Shown here: positions 6,406 through 15,388 of the stretch, piece by piece | Position numbering within the stretch: the stretch's first letter is position 1 | Layout: each line of letters starts with the position of its first letter | Origin: Deltaproteobacteria bacterium | Lineage (GTDB): Bacteria > Desulfobacterota > Dissulfuribacteria > Dissulfuribacterales > UBA5754 | Reading direction: 5' to 3' | Length of the DNA stretch: 36,739 bases | Assembly: GCA_036574075.1 (NCBI GenBank) | Contig: JAINCN010000033.1 | Location: forward strand, 1 to 36,739 | Made by a program: the position numbers and the translations under genes | Notes under the pieces: generated by a model | Seen by the model: only the letters and a program-made list of their open reading frames with translations | Told to the model about the DNA's origin: nothing | Databases searched by the model: none

Positions 6406-7821
6406 TTAAATGTCGTAATACAGGAAGAACTCGTGGGGATGGGGCCGCATCCGGACCTGATCCGCCTCATGTTTGGTCTTGTATTCGATCCATGTCTCGA
6501 TGACGTCCGGGGTGAAGACGTCTCCCTTGAGGAGGTATTCGTGGTCGGCCTTTAGGGCTGCGAGGGCCTCCTCAAGTGAGCCAGGTGCAGTCGGGATCAG
6601 GGCCAGTTCCTCAGGCGGGAGATCGTAGATGTTCTTGTCCATGGGCTCGCCCGGATCGATCTTGTTCTGTATGCCGTCCAGGACCGCCATCAGGATGGCT
6701 GCGAAGGCGAGGTAGCCGTTGCAGGAAGGATCCGGGGTCCGGTATTCGAGACGTTTCGCCTTGGGAGATGCTGAGTACATGGGGATACGGATGGACGCGC
6801 TCCGATTGCGGCTCGAGTATGCGAGATTCACTGGGGCCTCGTAGCCAGGGACGAGCCTCTTGTAGGAGTTGGTGGTGGGGTTGCAGATGGCGCAGAGGGA
6901 CTTGCCGTGCCTGAGTATTCCACCGATGGCGTAGAGGGCGTTGTCGGAGAGCCCTGCGTATTTGTCGCCTGCAAAGGTGGGCTTTCCGTCCTTCCAGATG
7001 CTGATGTGGGTGTGCATACCGGAGCCGTTGTCTCCGAAGAGGGGTTTAGGCATGAAGGTCACCGTGCTTCCGTGGCGATAGGCCACGTTTTTGAGAACGT
7101 ACTTGAACCACATGAGCTGGTCACCCATCTGAACAAGGGGCCTGAAGCGCATATCGATCTCGGCCTGGCCTGCGGTCGCCACCTCGTGGTGCTGGCACTC
7201 TACGTGGATCCCGAGCTTCTTCAGGGTGAGGACCATCTCGGTCCGCATGTCCTGGTACTTGTCGGTTGGCGGAGCGGGATAGTAGCCTTCCTTGTGGCGG
7301 ATCTTGTAGCCCTGGTTGGGGCACTCTTCACGATCCGAGTTCCAGATGGCCTCGATGGAGTCCACCTGGTAGAAGCTCCCGTTGGTCTTAGAGCTGTAGC
7401 GTACGTCATCGAAGATAAAGAATTCGGCCTCAGGGCCGAAATAGGCCGTGTCCCCGATACCGGTGCTCTTGAGGTATGCCTCAGCCTTCTTGGCGATGTA
7501 GCGGGGATCCCTGGAGTAGGGCTCCTTGGTGATGGGGTCAACGATGTCTCCGATGAGTACGAGGGTGGGCTCTTCGAAGAACGGGTCGATCTGGGCGGTG
7601 GTGGGATCCGGGATCACGAGCATGTCGCTTGCGTGTATGGGCTGCCAGCCGCGGATGCTCGAGCCGTCGAGTCCGAAGCCGTCCTCGAAGCTGGACTCCT
7701 CGAGTTCCTCGATAGGGACGGAAAAGTGCTGCCAGATGCCGGGGAGATCGATAAAGCGGAGATCCACCATCTTGACGCCCCGTTCCTGCGCCATTTTGAG
7801 AACTTCCTTCTTGGTTGCCAT
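6406..7821 (-). CDS. glnA: Glutamine synthetase, type I (adenylylation-controlled)
   Basis: GlnA joins ammonium to glutamate with ATP, the main entry of nitrogen at low ammonium. The 471-residue length and motifs [20 protein letters not shown] and NRSASIRIP are those of GSI-beta. The adenylylation tyrosine is present in [10 protein letters not shown] (Y399), so covalent inactivation by GlnE is expected. The ATG at 7821 is supported by AGGAGG ten bases upstream; a longer frame from 7896 has no such site. It lies 47 bases after glnD in the same direction, so it is probably cotranscribed with glnB and glnD, an order that couples sensor, modifier and enzyme. Confidence 0.97.
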
Positions 7822-7868
7822 GGCTTTTGATTCCTCCTGGGTTTTATGTTGCCGTCCGGTCTGGACGG

Positions 7869-10836
<2,968 letters not shown>

Positions 10837-10898: not shown

Positions 10899-10914
10899 TG
10901 CAAAATATGTTCTA
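10899..10914 (-). promoter_or_regulatory. Candidate sigma-54 promoter of glnB
   Basis: On the minus strand the sequence is TAGAACATATTTTGCA, against the consensus TGGCACG-N4-TTGCW. The -12 half TTGCA is perfect and the 10-base spacing is exact, but the -24 GG is AG. Alone it would be a weak call. It gains support because two upstream sites stand at the same distances as those in front of the near-perfect amtB promoter. Confidence 0.55.
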
Positions 10915-10982
10915 TTTTATTAACAAGTTGATTTTAATATAAAAATAATAACAACAAAATGGAATAGACATTGTTATTTTGT

Positions 10983-11024
10983 TACGATTTTGTTTTTTTA
11001 GGGCCGTATTATTACAAAAATGTA
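10983..11024. promoter_or_regulatory. Paired upstream activator sites for glnB
   Basis: TACAAAAATGTA (11013-11024, one mismatch to TACAAAATTGTA) and a poorer copy TACGATTTTGTT (10983-10994) are centred 30 bp apart, about 100 and 130 bp upstream of the predicted glnB start. The same geometry occurs before the amtB operon. Such positions are typical of enhancer sites for NtrC-type sigma-54 activators, but the motif is not the classical NtrC site. Confidence 0.5.
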
Positions 11025-11059
11025 TCACCAAAGCTAATACCAAAACATGGGCGTTTTGT

Positions 11060-11155
11060 CTTCATGCCGGCGTAGACCTTGATCCGTATATCTTTGAGCA
11101 GTGGATGCCGACCCGCGTATTGATGCCTTCCGTGGCAGGACATGCCGGCATGAAG
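11060..11155. other. Inverted repeat in the amtB-glnB gap
   Basis: CTTCATGCCGG (11060-11070) and CCGGCATGAAG (11145-11155) are perfect inverted repeats 74 bases apart; the right copy lies within a self-complementary CATGCCGGCATG. The segment 11025-11239 is otherwise AT-rich and holds no convincing gene. It could end the amtB transcript or be a relic of an insertion. Confidence 0.3.
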
Positions 11156-11239
11156 AAACGTTTATAAGCATATATATTCCAATTATGGACTCGGCATTAC
11201 TTATGAAGGTTTGAGTAAAAGGCCTTTCGATGAATCGGA

Positions 11240-12541
11240 TTAAATGACATAGGCCTCCTCTCCGTGTTCGGTCTCGTCGATTCCGGTGACCTCCTCGTCT
11301 GCTTCCACGCGTAGGCCCACGAACGCCTTGATGAGCATGAAGATGATGAAGGTGGCGACTGCGCAATAAATGGCGGTGACGGCTGCAGCGACGATCTGTG
11401 TCCAGAGCTGTCCTGGGTTGCCGTAAAGGAGTCCCTTGCCTGCCTCGTTTATGGCCGGATCTGCGAAGACCCCGGTGAGGATGGCGCCGAGGGTCCCAGC
11501 CACCCCGTGGATCCCGAATGCGTCGAGGGTGTCGTCATAGCCGAGTTTCGGCTTGAGCCAGGCGACGGAGAAGAAGGGCACGACGCCGGCGAGGATCCCC
11601 AGGATGAGTGCCCCGGTGATGTTCACGAATCCTGCAGCCGGGGTGATGGCGACGAGTCCGGCCACCGCCCCTGACGCAAGGCCGAGAACAGTGGGTTTCT
11701 TCGAGAAGATCCACTCGGTGATCATCCAGCTCACGGCGGCTATAGCCGCGGCCGTGTTGGTGTTGATGAAGGCCGCTCCCGCAAGTCCGTTCGCCGCAAG
11801 GGCGCTTCCCGCGTTGAAACCGAACCACCCGAACCATAGAAGCCCTGCTCCGAGGATCACGAGGGTGAGGTTATGAGGTTTGAGCGTCATGTCGCGCCGC
11901 TTCCCGAGGACCACGGCCCCGACCAGGGCGGCGATTCCCGCATTGATGTGGACGACGGTGCCGCCTGCGAAGTCAAGGGCGCCCTGTTGTGCCAGGAACC
12001 CACCTCCCCACACCCAGTGGGCCACCGGGGCGTAGACAACAGTGAGCCAGAGGACCAAAAAGAGTATCCAGGCGGAGAATTTCATCCGCTCGATGTAGGC
12101 CCCGCTTGCAAGTGCCACGGTGATGGCCGCGAACGTGAGCTGGAAGACGATGAAGACGAACTCAGGGATCTTCCCGGAGAGGGCGTCCACTCCGATCCCA
12201 GCGAGGAATAACTTGTCGAGACCTCCGATGAAGCCCGAGACGTCAGGGCCGAAGGATAGGCTGTAGCCATATGCCACCCAGAGGACGCTCACAATCGCGA
12301 ACGCAACGAAGGACATGGCCATGGTGTTCAAGGCGTCCTTGCGCTTGGAGAGCCCGCCGTAGAAGAGGGCGAGACCAGGGAGGGTCATGAGCATGACGAA
12401 CGCTGACGAGACGAGCATCCAGGCCGTGTCGCCCGTGTCGAGGGTGGGAGGCGGGGCCGCCTCCTCGGCAAAGGCCATGGCCGGCGCAAGGAACATGGCC
12501 GGCGAGAGGATCGAGAGGAAGGTGCGGATCGGGTTTTTCAT
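11240..12541 (-). CDS. amtB: Ammonium transporter AmtB
   Basis: AmtB is a trimeric inner-membrane ammonium channel closed by the PII protein when nitrogen is plentiful. The 433-residue protein begins with a cleavable-looking leader ([12 protein letters not shown]...AMAFAEE), followed by eleven hydrophobic segments and family motifs [35 protein letters not shown] and [13 protein letters not shown], which include the two pore histidines (VHI and GIHG). The ATG at 12541 is preceded by AGGAGG at good spacing; an upstream frame from 12565 lacks this. It is the second gene after a strong sigma-54 promoter; the first is a broken porin gene ending 25 bases upstream. Confidence 0.96.
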
Positions 12542-12566
12542 GGTAGATGCCTCCTTTTTCCCCAAA

Positions 12567-12846
12567 TCAGAAGCTCAGGGAGGCGGAGATGCCTCCGTAG
12601 AAGAAGGTGTCGTCGTCTCCGTCCACGCTCCGCCACTGCATTTCGTCAGAGGCGTCGTCAGAGAGGGGGAAGGTGATGTAGGCCTGGGGGGTGATCGAGA
12701 TGTACTGGGCAACGGGAATGGAGAGGGATGCGGAGATCGTCGCCCTCCTCCTCGGCGAGTACGGGTTGAACAGACGTCGCGATGGCGGCGAGGGATGCGG
12801 CAGTGATCCCCTTGAGTGTGTTTCCGAGATGCAGTCTCCTTTTCAT
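12567..12846 (-). pseudogene. Collapsed outer-membrane porin-like gene at the head of the amtB operon
   Basis: The frame opens well: GGGAGGAG precedes an ATG at 12846 that encodes a clear signal peptide (MKRRLHLGNTLKGITAASLA...PVLAEEE). After about 37 codons the continuing frame is junk, but another frame from about 12734 to the TGA at 12567 reads as a beta-barrel C-terminus: SIPVAQYISITPQAYITF, then [14 protein letters not shown] with a terminal Phe. The middle is missing and the two ends are out of frame. This fits an internal deletion plus frameshift in an exported barrel protein. TorF/Gcw_chp-type porins are often found beside ammonium transporters, which makes that family plausible but unproven. 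Confidence 0.7.
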
Positions 12847-12897
12847 GACTCCTCCCTAATGGGTGTTTTTGTGAGCACAAAGCCCGGAGTTTGTAAA

Positions 12898-12913
12898 AGC
12901 AAGGGATGTGCCG
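12898..12913 (-). promoter_or_regulatory. Sigma-54 promoter of the amtB operon
   Basis: The minus-strand sequence CGGCACATCCCTTGCT matches the consensus TGGCACG-N4-TTGCW with GG and GC exactly ten bases apart and both half-sites intact. Transcription would start near 12887, leaving a 40-base leader before the porin pseudogene and then amtB. Confidence 0.85.
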
Positions 12914-12980
12914 TAATGCAAAAGAATAGAAATTTATAATAAAAACAATAAAATAATATTGTAGCTTCTGTTCATTTTTA

Positions 12981-13023
12981 TACAAAATTGTAATTTCCTA
13001 AAAAAATAAATTACAAAATTGTA
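12981..13023. promoter_or_regulatory. Two perfect TACAAAATTGTA palindromes upstream of the amtB promoter
   Basis: The 12-bp palindrome occurs at 12981-12992 and again at 13012-13023, 31 bp centre to centre (three helical turns), at about -100 and -131 from the predicted start. The second extends to ATTACAAAATTGTAAAT. The placement fits enhancer sites of a sigma-54 activator. The 12914-13080 stretch is otherwise very AT-rich and holds no gene. Confidence 0.7.
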
Positions 13024-14014: not shown

Positions 14015-15388
14015 ATGAAGAGGAGCGCCTTTATTTTCTTGTCTACCCTAGCATTGGGTGCCATGCCATTGGTAACTGCCCATGCTGGGCCAGTTATGGA
14101 GTTTGGGGATGAAAGCTATCTCCAGATGGATGTAAAGCTTCAGGGCATAGCCGACTATGCTGATTTCGGCTCAGGTCTCACGGGTGATGACGACAAATGG
14201 GACCTAAACCTCAGGAGGACCCGTATCTCTCTTACCGGGTTTTTAAATGAAACCTGGGGCGCAAAGTTTCAGACCTGCGGCGGGACCAGTGTAGACCGCC
14301 AGATGGGCGGCACAGGTTTTTCCTTAGCCAACAGCAATGACAAGAACAACACCAGGATGAGGGTGATTGACGCATATCTCATGGGACTCTTCAATGACTG
14401 GCTGAACATCAAAGTGGGGTTGACAAAGATCCCCCTCACACGTGCCAATCTCGACGAATGTTTTGCCCCACTTACAACAGAGAGGTCGCGGTTCGTCTAT
14501 ACTCCATTTGGCCTTGATGCCTCAAAAAGCAGTAGGGATATGGGTATAGTTGCCTCTGGAAACTTCTTTGAAGACCACATCAAGTACTGGGCTGCTATCA
14601 TGGAGGGAAGGGATGGAGCGGCAAAATTCCCCAATCCCTTTATCGACAAGACCTTTTACACCAGCCCTGAGCCTGATAGCAACCTGGAGTATGTCCTGAG
14701 ACTCCACTATTCCTTCCTTGATCCTGAAAACGGCCCCACATCCATGGGATACGACGGTACCTATCTCGGGAAAAAGGGGAGGATCTTTACCATTGGGGCT
14801 GCAGGTGCATATGAGGCAGACGTGGCCTACGAAAACACAGCACCAGCAGGCGCACCGGGCACGCCACAATTTTTCGAGGCAAAGGTGCTCGATGACGACA
14901 AGGTGGACTACTGGGCCTTTACAGCAGATGCCTTTCTCGAGATTCCGGTTACCGGAAACGGCGACTGGCTTACACTCACCGGCCTCTACCTCAAAGTGGA
15001 TCTTGATGACGCCTATAAGACTGCCAGGGCTGTGGCGGACCTCAACACCATCGTGGGTGGCCTTGTTGGTCAGAGAGAGGGTTGGTTAGTAAAGGGCGGC
15101 TATATACTCCCCTTCAGGGTAAAGGATAATGGCATGATTCAACCCTTTGCCCGATATGAGCATTGGGACTATGCCCACCTTTACGGGGTTGACGACCAGA
15201 CCGTTGATGAGTGGGGTGTTGGTTTCAATTACTACCCGCTGGGCAATCTCAATCTCCGCTTCGCCCTTGAATACCAGCATGCGGACTATGATAAGCCTAC
15301 AAAATTTGGCGACTACATGAGCCAGAAAAACAATATATTTTACGATGATGCCGACATCTTGACGCTTGAATTTATGATTTCAATATAA
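14015..15388 (+). CDS. Outer-membrane porin, OprO/OprP-like, resembling selenite/tellurite-associated ExtI
   Basis: A 457-residue exported beta-barrel with a signal peptide (MKRSAFIFLSTLALGAMPLVTAHA). Features of the phosphate-selective-porin superfamily include DLNLRRTRISLTGFLNETWGAKFQ near the N-terminus, IKVGLTKIPLTRANLDECFAPL and alternating aromatic strands to the end. The wording around these motifs resembles porins annotated ExtI in Geobacter-type anaerobes, where they are linked to selenite and tellurite reduction; that assignment is from memory. AAGGAGGG lies eight bases ahead of the ATG. Codon use is visibly AT-richer than in flanking genes and the gene is surrounded by mobile debris, so transfer is likely. 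A small exported protein gene follows. Confidence 0.82.
   Translation: MKRSAFIFLSTLALGAMPLVTAHAGPVMEFGDESYLQMDVKLQGIADYADFGSGLTGDDDKWDLNLRRTRISLTGFLNETWGAKFQTCGGTSVDRQMGGTGFSLANSNDKNNTRMRVIDAYLMGLFNDWLNIKVGLTKIPLTRANLDECFAPLTTERSRFVYTPFGLDASKSSRDMGIVASGNFFEDHIKYWAAIMEGRDGAAKFPNPFIDKTFYTSPEPDSNLEYVLRLHYSFLDPENGPTSMGYDGTYLGKKGRIFTIGAAGAYEADVAYENTAPAGAPGTPQFFEAKVLDDDKVDYWAFTADAFLEIPVTGNGDWLTLTGLYLKVDLDDAYKTARAVADLNTIVGGLVGQREGWLVKGGYILPFRVKDNGMIQPFARYEHWDYAHLYGVDDQTVDEWGVGFNYYPLGNLNLRFALEYQHADYDKPTKFGDYMSQKNNIFYDDADILTLEFMISI

Follow-up and report, generated by a model that had tools for sequence, protein, structure and literature searches.

The upstream regions of amtB and glnB in the window, that is, the whole stretch of 36,739 nucleotides analysed here (contig C33 of the 1.99-Mb draft genome G000), each carry two copies of a short motif ahead of a -24/-12 promoter. 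This raises the question of whether the twin sites are enhancers and which regulator would bind them. Sigma-54 promoters require an enhancer-binding activator, and the NtrC enhancer pairs, such as that of glnAp2 in enteric bacteria, consist of GCAC-N-GTGC sites about three turns apart at roughly -100/-130. The genes concerned are arranged as follows.

6406-7896, minus strand: glnA, glutamine synthetase, the last gene of the glnB-glnD-glnA operon
7869-10505, minus strand: glnD, PII uridylyltransferase, overlapping glnB and glnA
10495-10833, minus strand: glnB, PII signal protein (profile match to PF00543)
11240-12541, minus strand: amtB, ammonium transporter (profile match to PF00909)

As glnB, glnD and glnA overlap, they are read as a single operon, and amtB lies likewise on the minus strand. 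Upstream of these two units, the following elements were located.

10900-10914, minus strand: sigma-54 promoter of glnB-glnD-glnA, TAGAACATATTTTGC, with the -24 GG weakened to AG
10921-10933, minus strand: IHF-like site AATCAACTTGTTA between the glnB enhancer and promoter, an exact match to WATCAANNNNTTR
10983-10994, no strand assigned: proximal, weak glnB enhancer site, AACAAAATCGTA in the minus-strand reading, centre 88 bp from the GC; AACAAAATTGTA in the sister species G001
11013-11024, no strand assigned: distal glnB enhancer site, TACATTTTTGTA in the minus-strand reading, centre 118 bp from the GC; TACATTTTCGTA in the sister species
12899-12913, minus strand: sigma-54 (-24/-12) promoter of the amtB transcript, CGGCACATCCCTTGC, called by sequence score
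12981-12992, no strand assigned: proximal amtB enhancer site, TACAAAATTGTA, centre 87 bp from the GC
13012-13023, no strand assigned: distal amtB enhancer site, TACAAAATTGTA, centre 118 bp from the GC of the -12 element

Direct reading and a scan reproduced the geometry given in the initial annotation, with sites 87 and 118 bp from the amtB box and 88 and 118 bp from the glnB box, and with 31 and 30 bp between the sites of each pair. The amtB sites had also been described as perfect palindromes, which they are not, since TACAAAATTGTA differs from its reverse complement TACAATTTTGTA; the site is an inverted repeat with 5-bp arms and a 2-bp AA centre. Both distances of each pair fall within the range of about 80-150 bp upstream that is usual for activator sites. 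Across the order the consensus reads TACA-W4-TGTA, or in shorter form TAC-N6-GTA, and this is matched by both amtB sites and the distal glnB site, the proximal glnB site being AAC-N6-GTA in the minus-strand reading. The glnB copies had been called one-mismatch and weak; the pair itself was recovered, but against the TACA-N4-TGTA core of the order the distal site shows no mismatch and the proximal site two.

The -24/-12 box of amtB fits GG-N10-GC and scores 15.8 of 16.7, a value equalled in 0 of 200 shuffles, whereas the glnB box, rightly described as the weaker one, has AG for GG. Alignment of the glnB region with that of the sister species is good between the distal site and the promoter and fails farther upstream, and the canonical box TGGAACGTGTTTTGC of the sister species occupies the position of TAGAACATATTTTGC. 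This canonical box supports the weak glnB promoter and suggests that it is slightly worn in the window genome. The IHF-like site, which matches the IHF consensus, has one mismatch in the sister species, and at most one mismatch is found in 9 of the 13 spacers of relatives, compared with 3.1 expected from shuffles. Each pair is followed, some 30 bp downstream, by a third weak copy with three mismatches (10953-10964 and 12952-12963); since the glnB one is lost in the sister species, these copies are probably not functional.

Both upstream regions are 21% GC, as would suit pairs that were chance products of AT-rich gaps. The motif is not randomly spread over such gaps: TACAANNTTGTA occurs twice in G000, both times before amtB, and TACAN4TGTA-N17..21-TACAN4TGTA occurs once. 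At 30 bp spacing with up to two mismatches, the glnB pair is the sole locus of the genome. When AT-rich stretches were dinucleotide-shuffled 20,000 times, the amtB pair was equalled by 0 shuffles and the glnB pair by 11. Across 46 genomes of the order, a scan returned 14 exact TACAN4TGTA pairs with 17-21 bp between the sites, found in 10 of the genomes and all spaced 30-31 bp, though 29-33 bp was permitted; the reversed pattern gave 0 pairs in the same genomes. With the shuffles, the rarity in the genome and the reversed-pattern control all against it, and with conservation in the sister species and throughout the order contradicting it, a tandem or chance origin in AT-rich sequence was rejected as scarcely credible. 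That the paired sites would serve as enhancers of sigma-54 promoters is, on sequence grounds, close to certain.

Conservation in the order follows the same geometry. Pairs of the AT type that were read out in relatives immediately precede torF-amtB, amtB-amtB-glnB-glnD-glnA or glnB-amtB operons. When looser pairs are included, the spacing is 30-32 bp and the proximal centre lies 77-110 bp from the sigma-54 box, in agreement with the proposal of two sigma-54 promoters with paired enhancers. Box scoring gave a good downstream sigma-54 box for nearly all of the relatives' pairs, and no convincing one at L353. The glnB pair is kept in the sister species, pairs precede nifA in two relatives (G013 and G003), and in G015 a GSIII-like glutamine synthetase gene is preceded by one unpaired site and a sigma-54 box. 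These sites, spacings, promoters, patterns of conservation and gene contents are read from the DNA itself.

Among contigs found in the AmtB comparison, from which the variant was drawn, amtB promoters of Nitrospirota carry identical sites at a spacing of 18 bp, together with sigma-54-like boxes; the pair is exact in L197, L198 and L203 and has a degenerate partner in L199, L202 and L205. These TACA-N4-TGTA pairs precede torF/amtB and keep the half-site, with a pair spacing of 18 bp compared with 30-32 bp in the order; in L198, one 18-bp pair precedes an ABC-transporter operon.

As to the binder, the paired sites resemble NtrC pairs in their arrangement at sigma-54 promoters of amtB/glnB/glnA-type genes and differ in site sequence. 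Neither promoter contains GCAC-N3..8-GTGC, so the site is indeed unlike the NtrC box, as had been proposed. Further, the highest score of any enhancer-binding protein (EBP) of G000 against the NtrC model is 473 bits, below the cut-off of 558.6, and the kinase encoded next to the best-scoring NtrX/NtrC-like EBP is NtrY-like, reaching 119.6 against the NtrB model, where the cut-off is 240. With these profile models, recognised NtrBC was not found in G000, and the NtrC system was rejected.

AnfA and VnfA activate alternative nitrogenases; both are paralogues of NifA and combine a GAF, an AAA+ and a Fis HTH domain. The AnfA consensus TAC-N6-GTA was found by mutation and gel shift, and full anfH expression needs two sites (PMC7294313). 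Like the sites described here, AnfA sites are TAC-N6-GTA sequences placed in twos upstream of a sigma-54 promoter, and the protein that binds them belongs to the NifA family and has the GAF-AAA+-HTH architecture (PMC7294313), as the binder here probably does. The target of AnfA is the iron-only nitrogenase operon, in contrast with amtB and glnB-glnD-glnA here, in a genome where no convincing nifH was found. The VnfA1 motif of Azotobacter vinelandii, GT(T/A)C-N6-GTAC, is mostly present twice per promoter with similar spacing (PMC9542535). Its half-site geometry is that seen here and TAC-N6-GTA falls inside it, whereas its outer G/C is fixed in place of Y/R and its targets are vanadium nitrogenase genes. 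By analogy, the amtB and glnB pairs would thus work like an AnfA/VnfA enhancer pair. As TAC-N6-GTA is the AnfA consensus, an activator of the NifA/AnfA type is indicated.

G000 encodes ten full sigma-54 activators, and the only NifA-family member among the genome's proteins, denoted class A (G000:C34:37423-39060), has a GAF domain, an AAA+ domain with GAFTGA and a Fis-type HTH. Its score of 551.6 bits against TIGR01817 (NifA; cut-off 528.85) places it in the NifA model family. By the features tested it is not AnfA. AnfA serves the anfHDGK operon, and no nitrogenase operon was found in G000, in which a NifH-family profile search gave short weak matches only, the best of them scoring 34 bits and covering 78 of 271 positions. 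Residues 1-70 of the class A protein contain a single cysteine, Cys41, and the N-terminal cysteine motif that precedes the GAF domain in AnfA was not found. Considering the site and the domain architecture, by which it is likened to AnfA, class A is the most likely binder, with a probability that we put at roughly 0.6.

Class A genes of relatives have a site with at most one mismatch at their own promoter in 17 of 27 cases, compared with 5.6 expected, and this site lies in a conserved place at the promoter or start in families f5, f8 and f9. In f8 and f9 it overlaps a sigma-70-like -35 element, as would suit autorepression of the class A gene, which these sequences suggest. The class A nifA-like genes from L104 to L121 are preceded by a conserved sigma-70-like promoter, TTGCAAAATTGTA...TAAAGTT, and its -35 element coincides in part with an enhancer site that has one mismatch. 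No site is present at the class A promoter of the window's own genus. Neighbours of the amtB operon include NifA-family genes in G011, G012/G002 and G008, and in the SKW74 MAG such a gene is divergent from torF-amtB-glnB with two one-mismatch sites between.

A tree separates class A from class B NifA-family proteins. The genomes G006, G007, G011, G014 and G015 are without class A, and each of these five has a NifA-family protein of one class B clade, B1; G034 has a pair yet neither class A nor B1. Presence or absence did not correlate significantly with pairs for class A (p = 0.15), A+B1 (p = 0.16) or NtrX (p = 0.65; Fisher). The recognition helices vary among class A, the class A of family f2 and B1, and the site is identical. 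The nifH-linked NifA (class B2) is unlikely as the general binder, considering that no nifH-linked class B protein was found in G000 and that nifA itself has a pair in G013 and G003; because of these two pairs, the binder would stand above NifA. The NifA element TGT-N10-ACA was likewise rejected as the shared element, its two matches in the amtB region being off the register of the pair or downstream of the promoter.

The torF-amtB locus of family f2 also encodes a NifA-like protein that combines GAF and Fis-HTH and lacks AAA+ (L087:2578-3456 and L080:8445-9272), and the L087 copy has its own enhancer pair and sigma-54 box. By its domain content this protein is predicted to be unable to activate sigma-54 itself, and it may act as a competitor for the sites or as a modulator of class A.

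In the main rival reading, which we consider unlikely, the place of class A as sigma-54 activator is taken by the two-component regulator NtrY-NtrX (L045:5752-7149, G000:C25:91754-93148). Both amtB sites contain CAA-AA-TTG, which fits the NtrX motifs CAAN2-5TTG and CAAN3-5TTG (PMC9223101), but CAA..TTG is not kept in the order consensus TACA-W4-TGTA. The NtrX protein has GAFTGA, its partner kinase carries an NtrY_N domain, and orthologues are present in 41 of the 46 genomes; however, NtrX is absent from G015 and from the 99%-complete G029, both of which have pairs. Moreover, ntrX genes are not enriched in sites (at most one mismatch in 2 of 30, compared with 6.1 expected), and among the loci read ntrX never stands beside amtB.

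Another sigma-54 response regulator, e.g. the AtoC-like L046:5106-6515, is an improbable candidate. Its recognition helix NRTTLIEKMKK is constant in all five genomes in which EBPs were compared (G000, G015, G022, G014 and G006), yet a search for exact GAFTGA in the protein gave no match, no genomic tie to nitrogen genes was seen, and known motifs give no pointer to it. A transcription factor other than a sigma-54 activator, be it a repressor or an architectural protein, would agree with the overlap of the class A promoter sites with a -35 element, as a repressor site would lie there, but it is very improbable considering the fixed pairing and the fixed distance to sigma-54 boxes in the scanned loci and the need of such promoters for an enhancer-binding activator.

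The two pairs are read as the upstream activating sequences of the amtB and glnB-glnD-glnA promoters. With class A as the binder, one activator dimer would occupy each site, and the distance of about three helical turns would allow cooperative binding. The activator would then loop to RNA polymerase-sigma54 some 90-120 bp downstream, probably helped by IHF at glnB, and open the promoter through ATP hydrolysis. Class A would then be an AnfA-like one-component protein that no longer serves a nitrogenase and that, when ammonium is scarce, would raise AmtB, PII, GlnD and glutamine synthetase. We infer the binder, the direction of regulation and the looping, as well as a feedback in which PII, uridylylated or not by GlnD, would act on class A via its GAF domain. 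Such a loop is plausible by analogy, because the regulated operon itself encodes PII and its uridylyltransferase and because deuridylylated PII inhibits AnfA via the GAF domain in R. palustris (PMC12093980).

A further likeness is DVU1949 of Desulfovibrio vulgaris, which is described as a predicted one-component sigma-54 activator of nitrogen metabolism and transport operons (PMC4641369). Its regulon is a prediction, and it is by this description that DVU1949 is likened to class A; the literature text covered gives no binding motif for GnfM or DVU1949. At about even odds, an AnfA-type one-component activator replaces NtrBC throughout the order, with the 18-bp spacing in Nitrospirota, sits above nifA in diazotrophs and persists in non-diazotrophs. 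If so, the TAC-N6-GTA of alternative nitrogenases would belong to an older code for general nitrogen control, and the likeness suggests a link between the site of alternative-nitrogenase activators and general nitrogen assimilation. For lineages that lack a recognised NtrBC, such as Dissulfuribacterales-type sulfur bacteria and Nitrospirota, it would offer a testable DNA code of nitrogen control. It also suggests that "NifA" activators in genomes lacking nitrogenase, usually annotated as nitrogen-fixation regulators, run ammonium uptake and PII signalling.

The amtB unit of the window contains one more feature, between the promoter and amtB.

12567-12846, minus strand: remnant of a torF-like porin gene, with the signal-peptide end and the last ~56 residues, frame-shifted, the middle being lost

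Relatives have an intact torF, matching PF09694, at the position of this remnant, and its C-terminal piece aligns end to end with the torF of G007 (6e-18) and others. AmtB of the window is 73-75% identical to that of G007/G015 (family f7), about 75% to several from Nitrospirota and 50-58% to most of the order. No amtB was found in G001, where the gene preceding glnB resembles glmU, and GlnB as a query against plasmids gave distant matches only. As far as the torF and AmtB comparisons indicate, torF and amtB were likely transferred as one unit that brought its enhancer along. Just upstream of the amtB region, at 14015-15388, the window also encodes a porin that scores 301.9 bits (cut-off 150) against NF040900, the model for ExtI of selenite/tellurite reduction operons.
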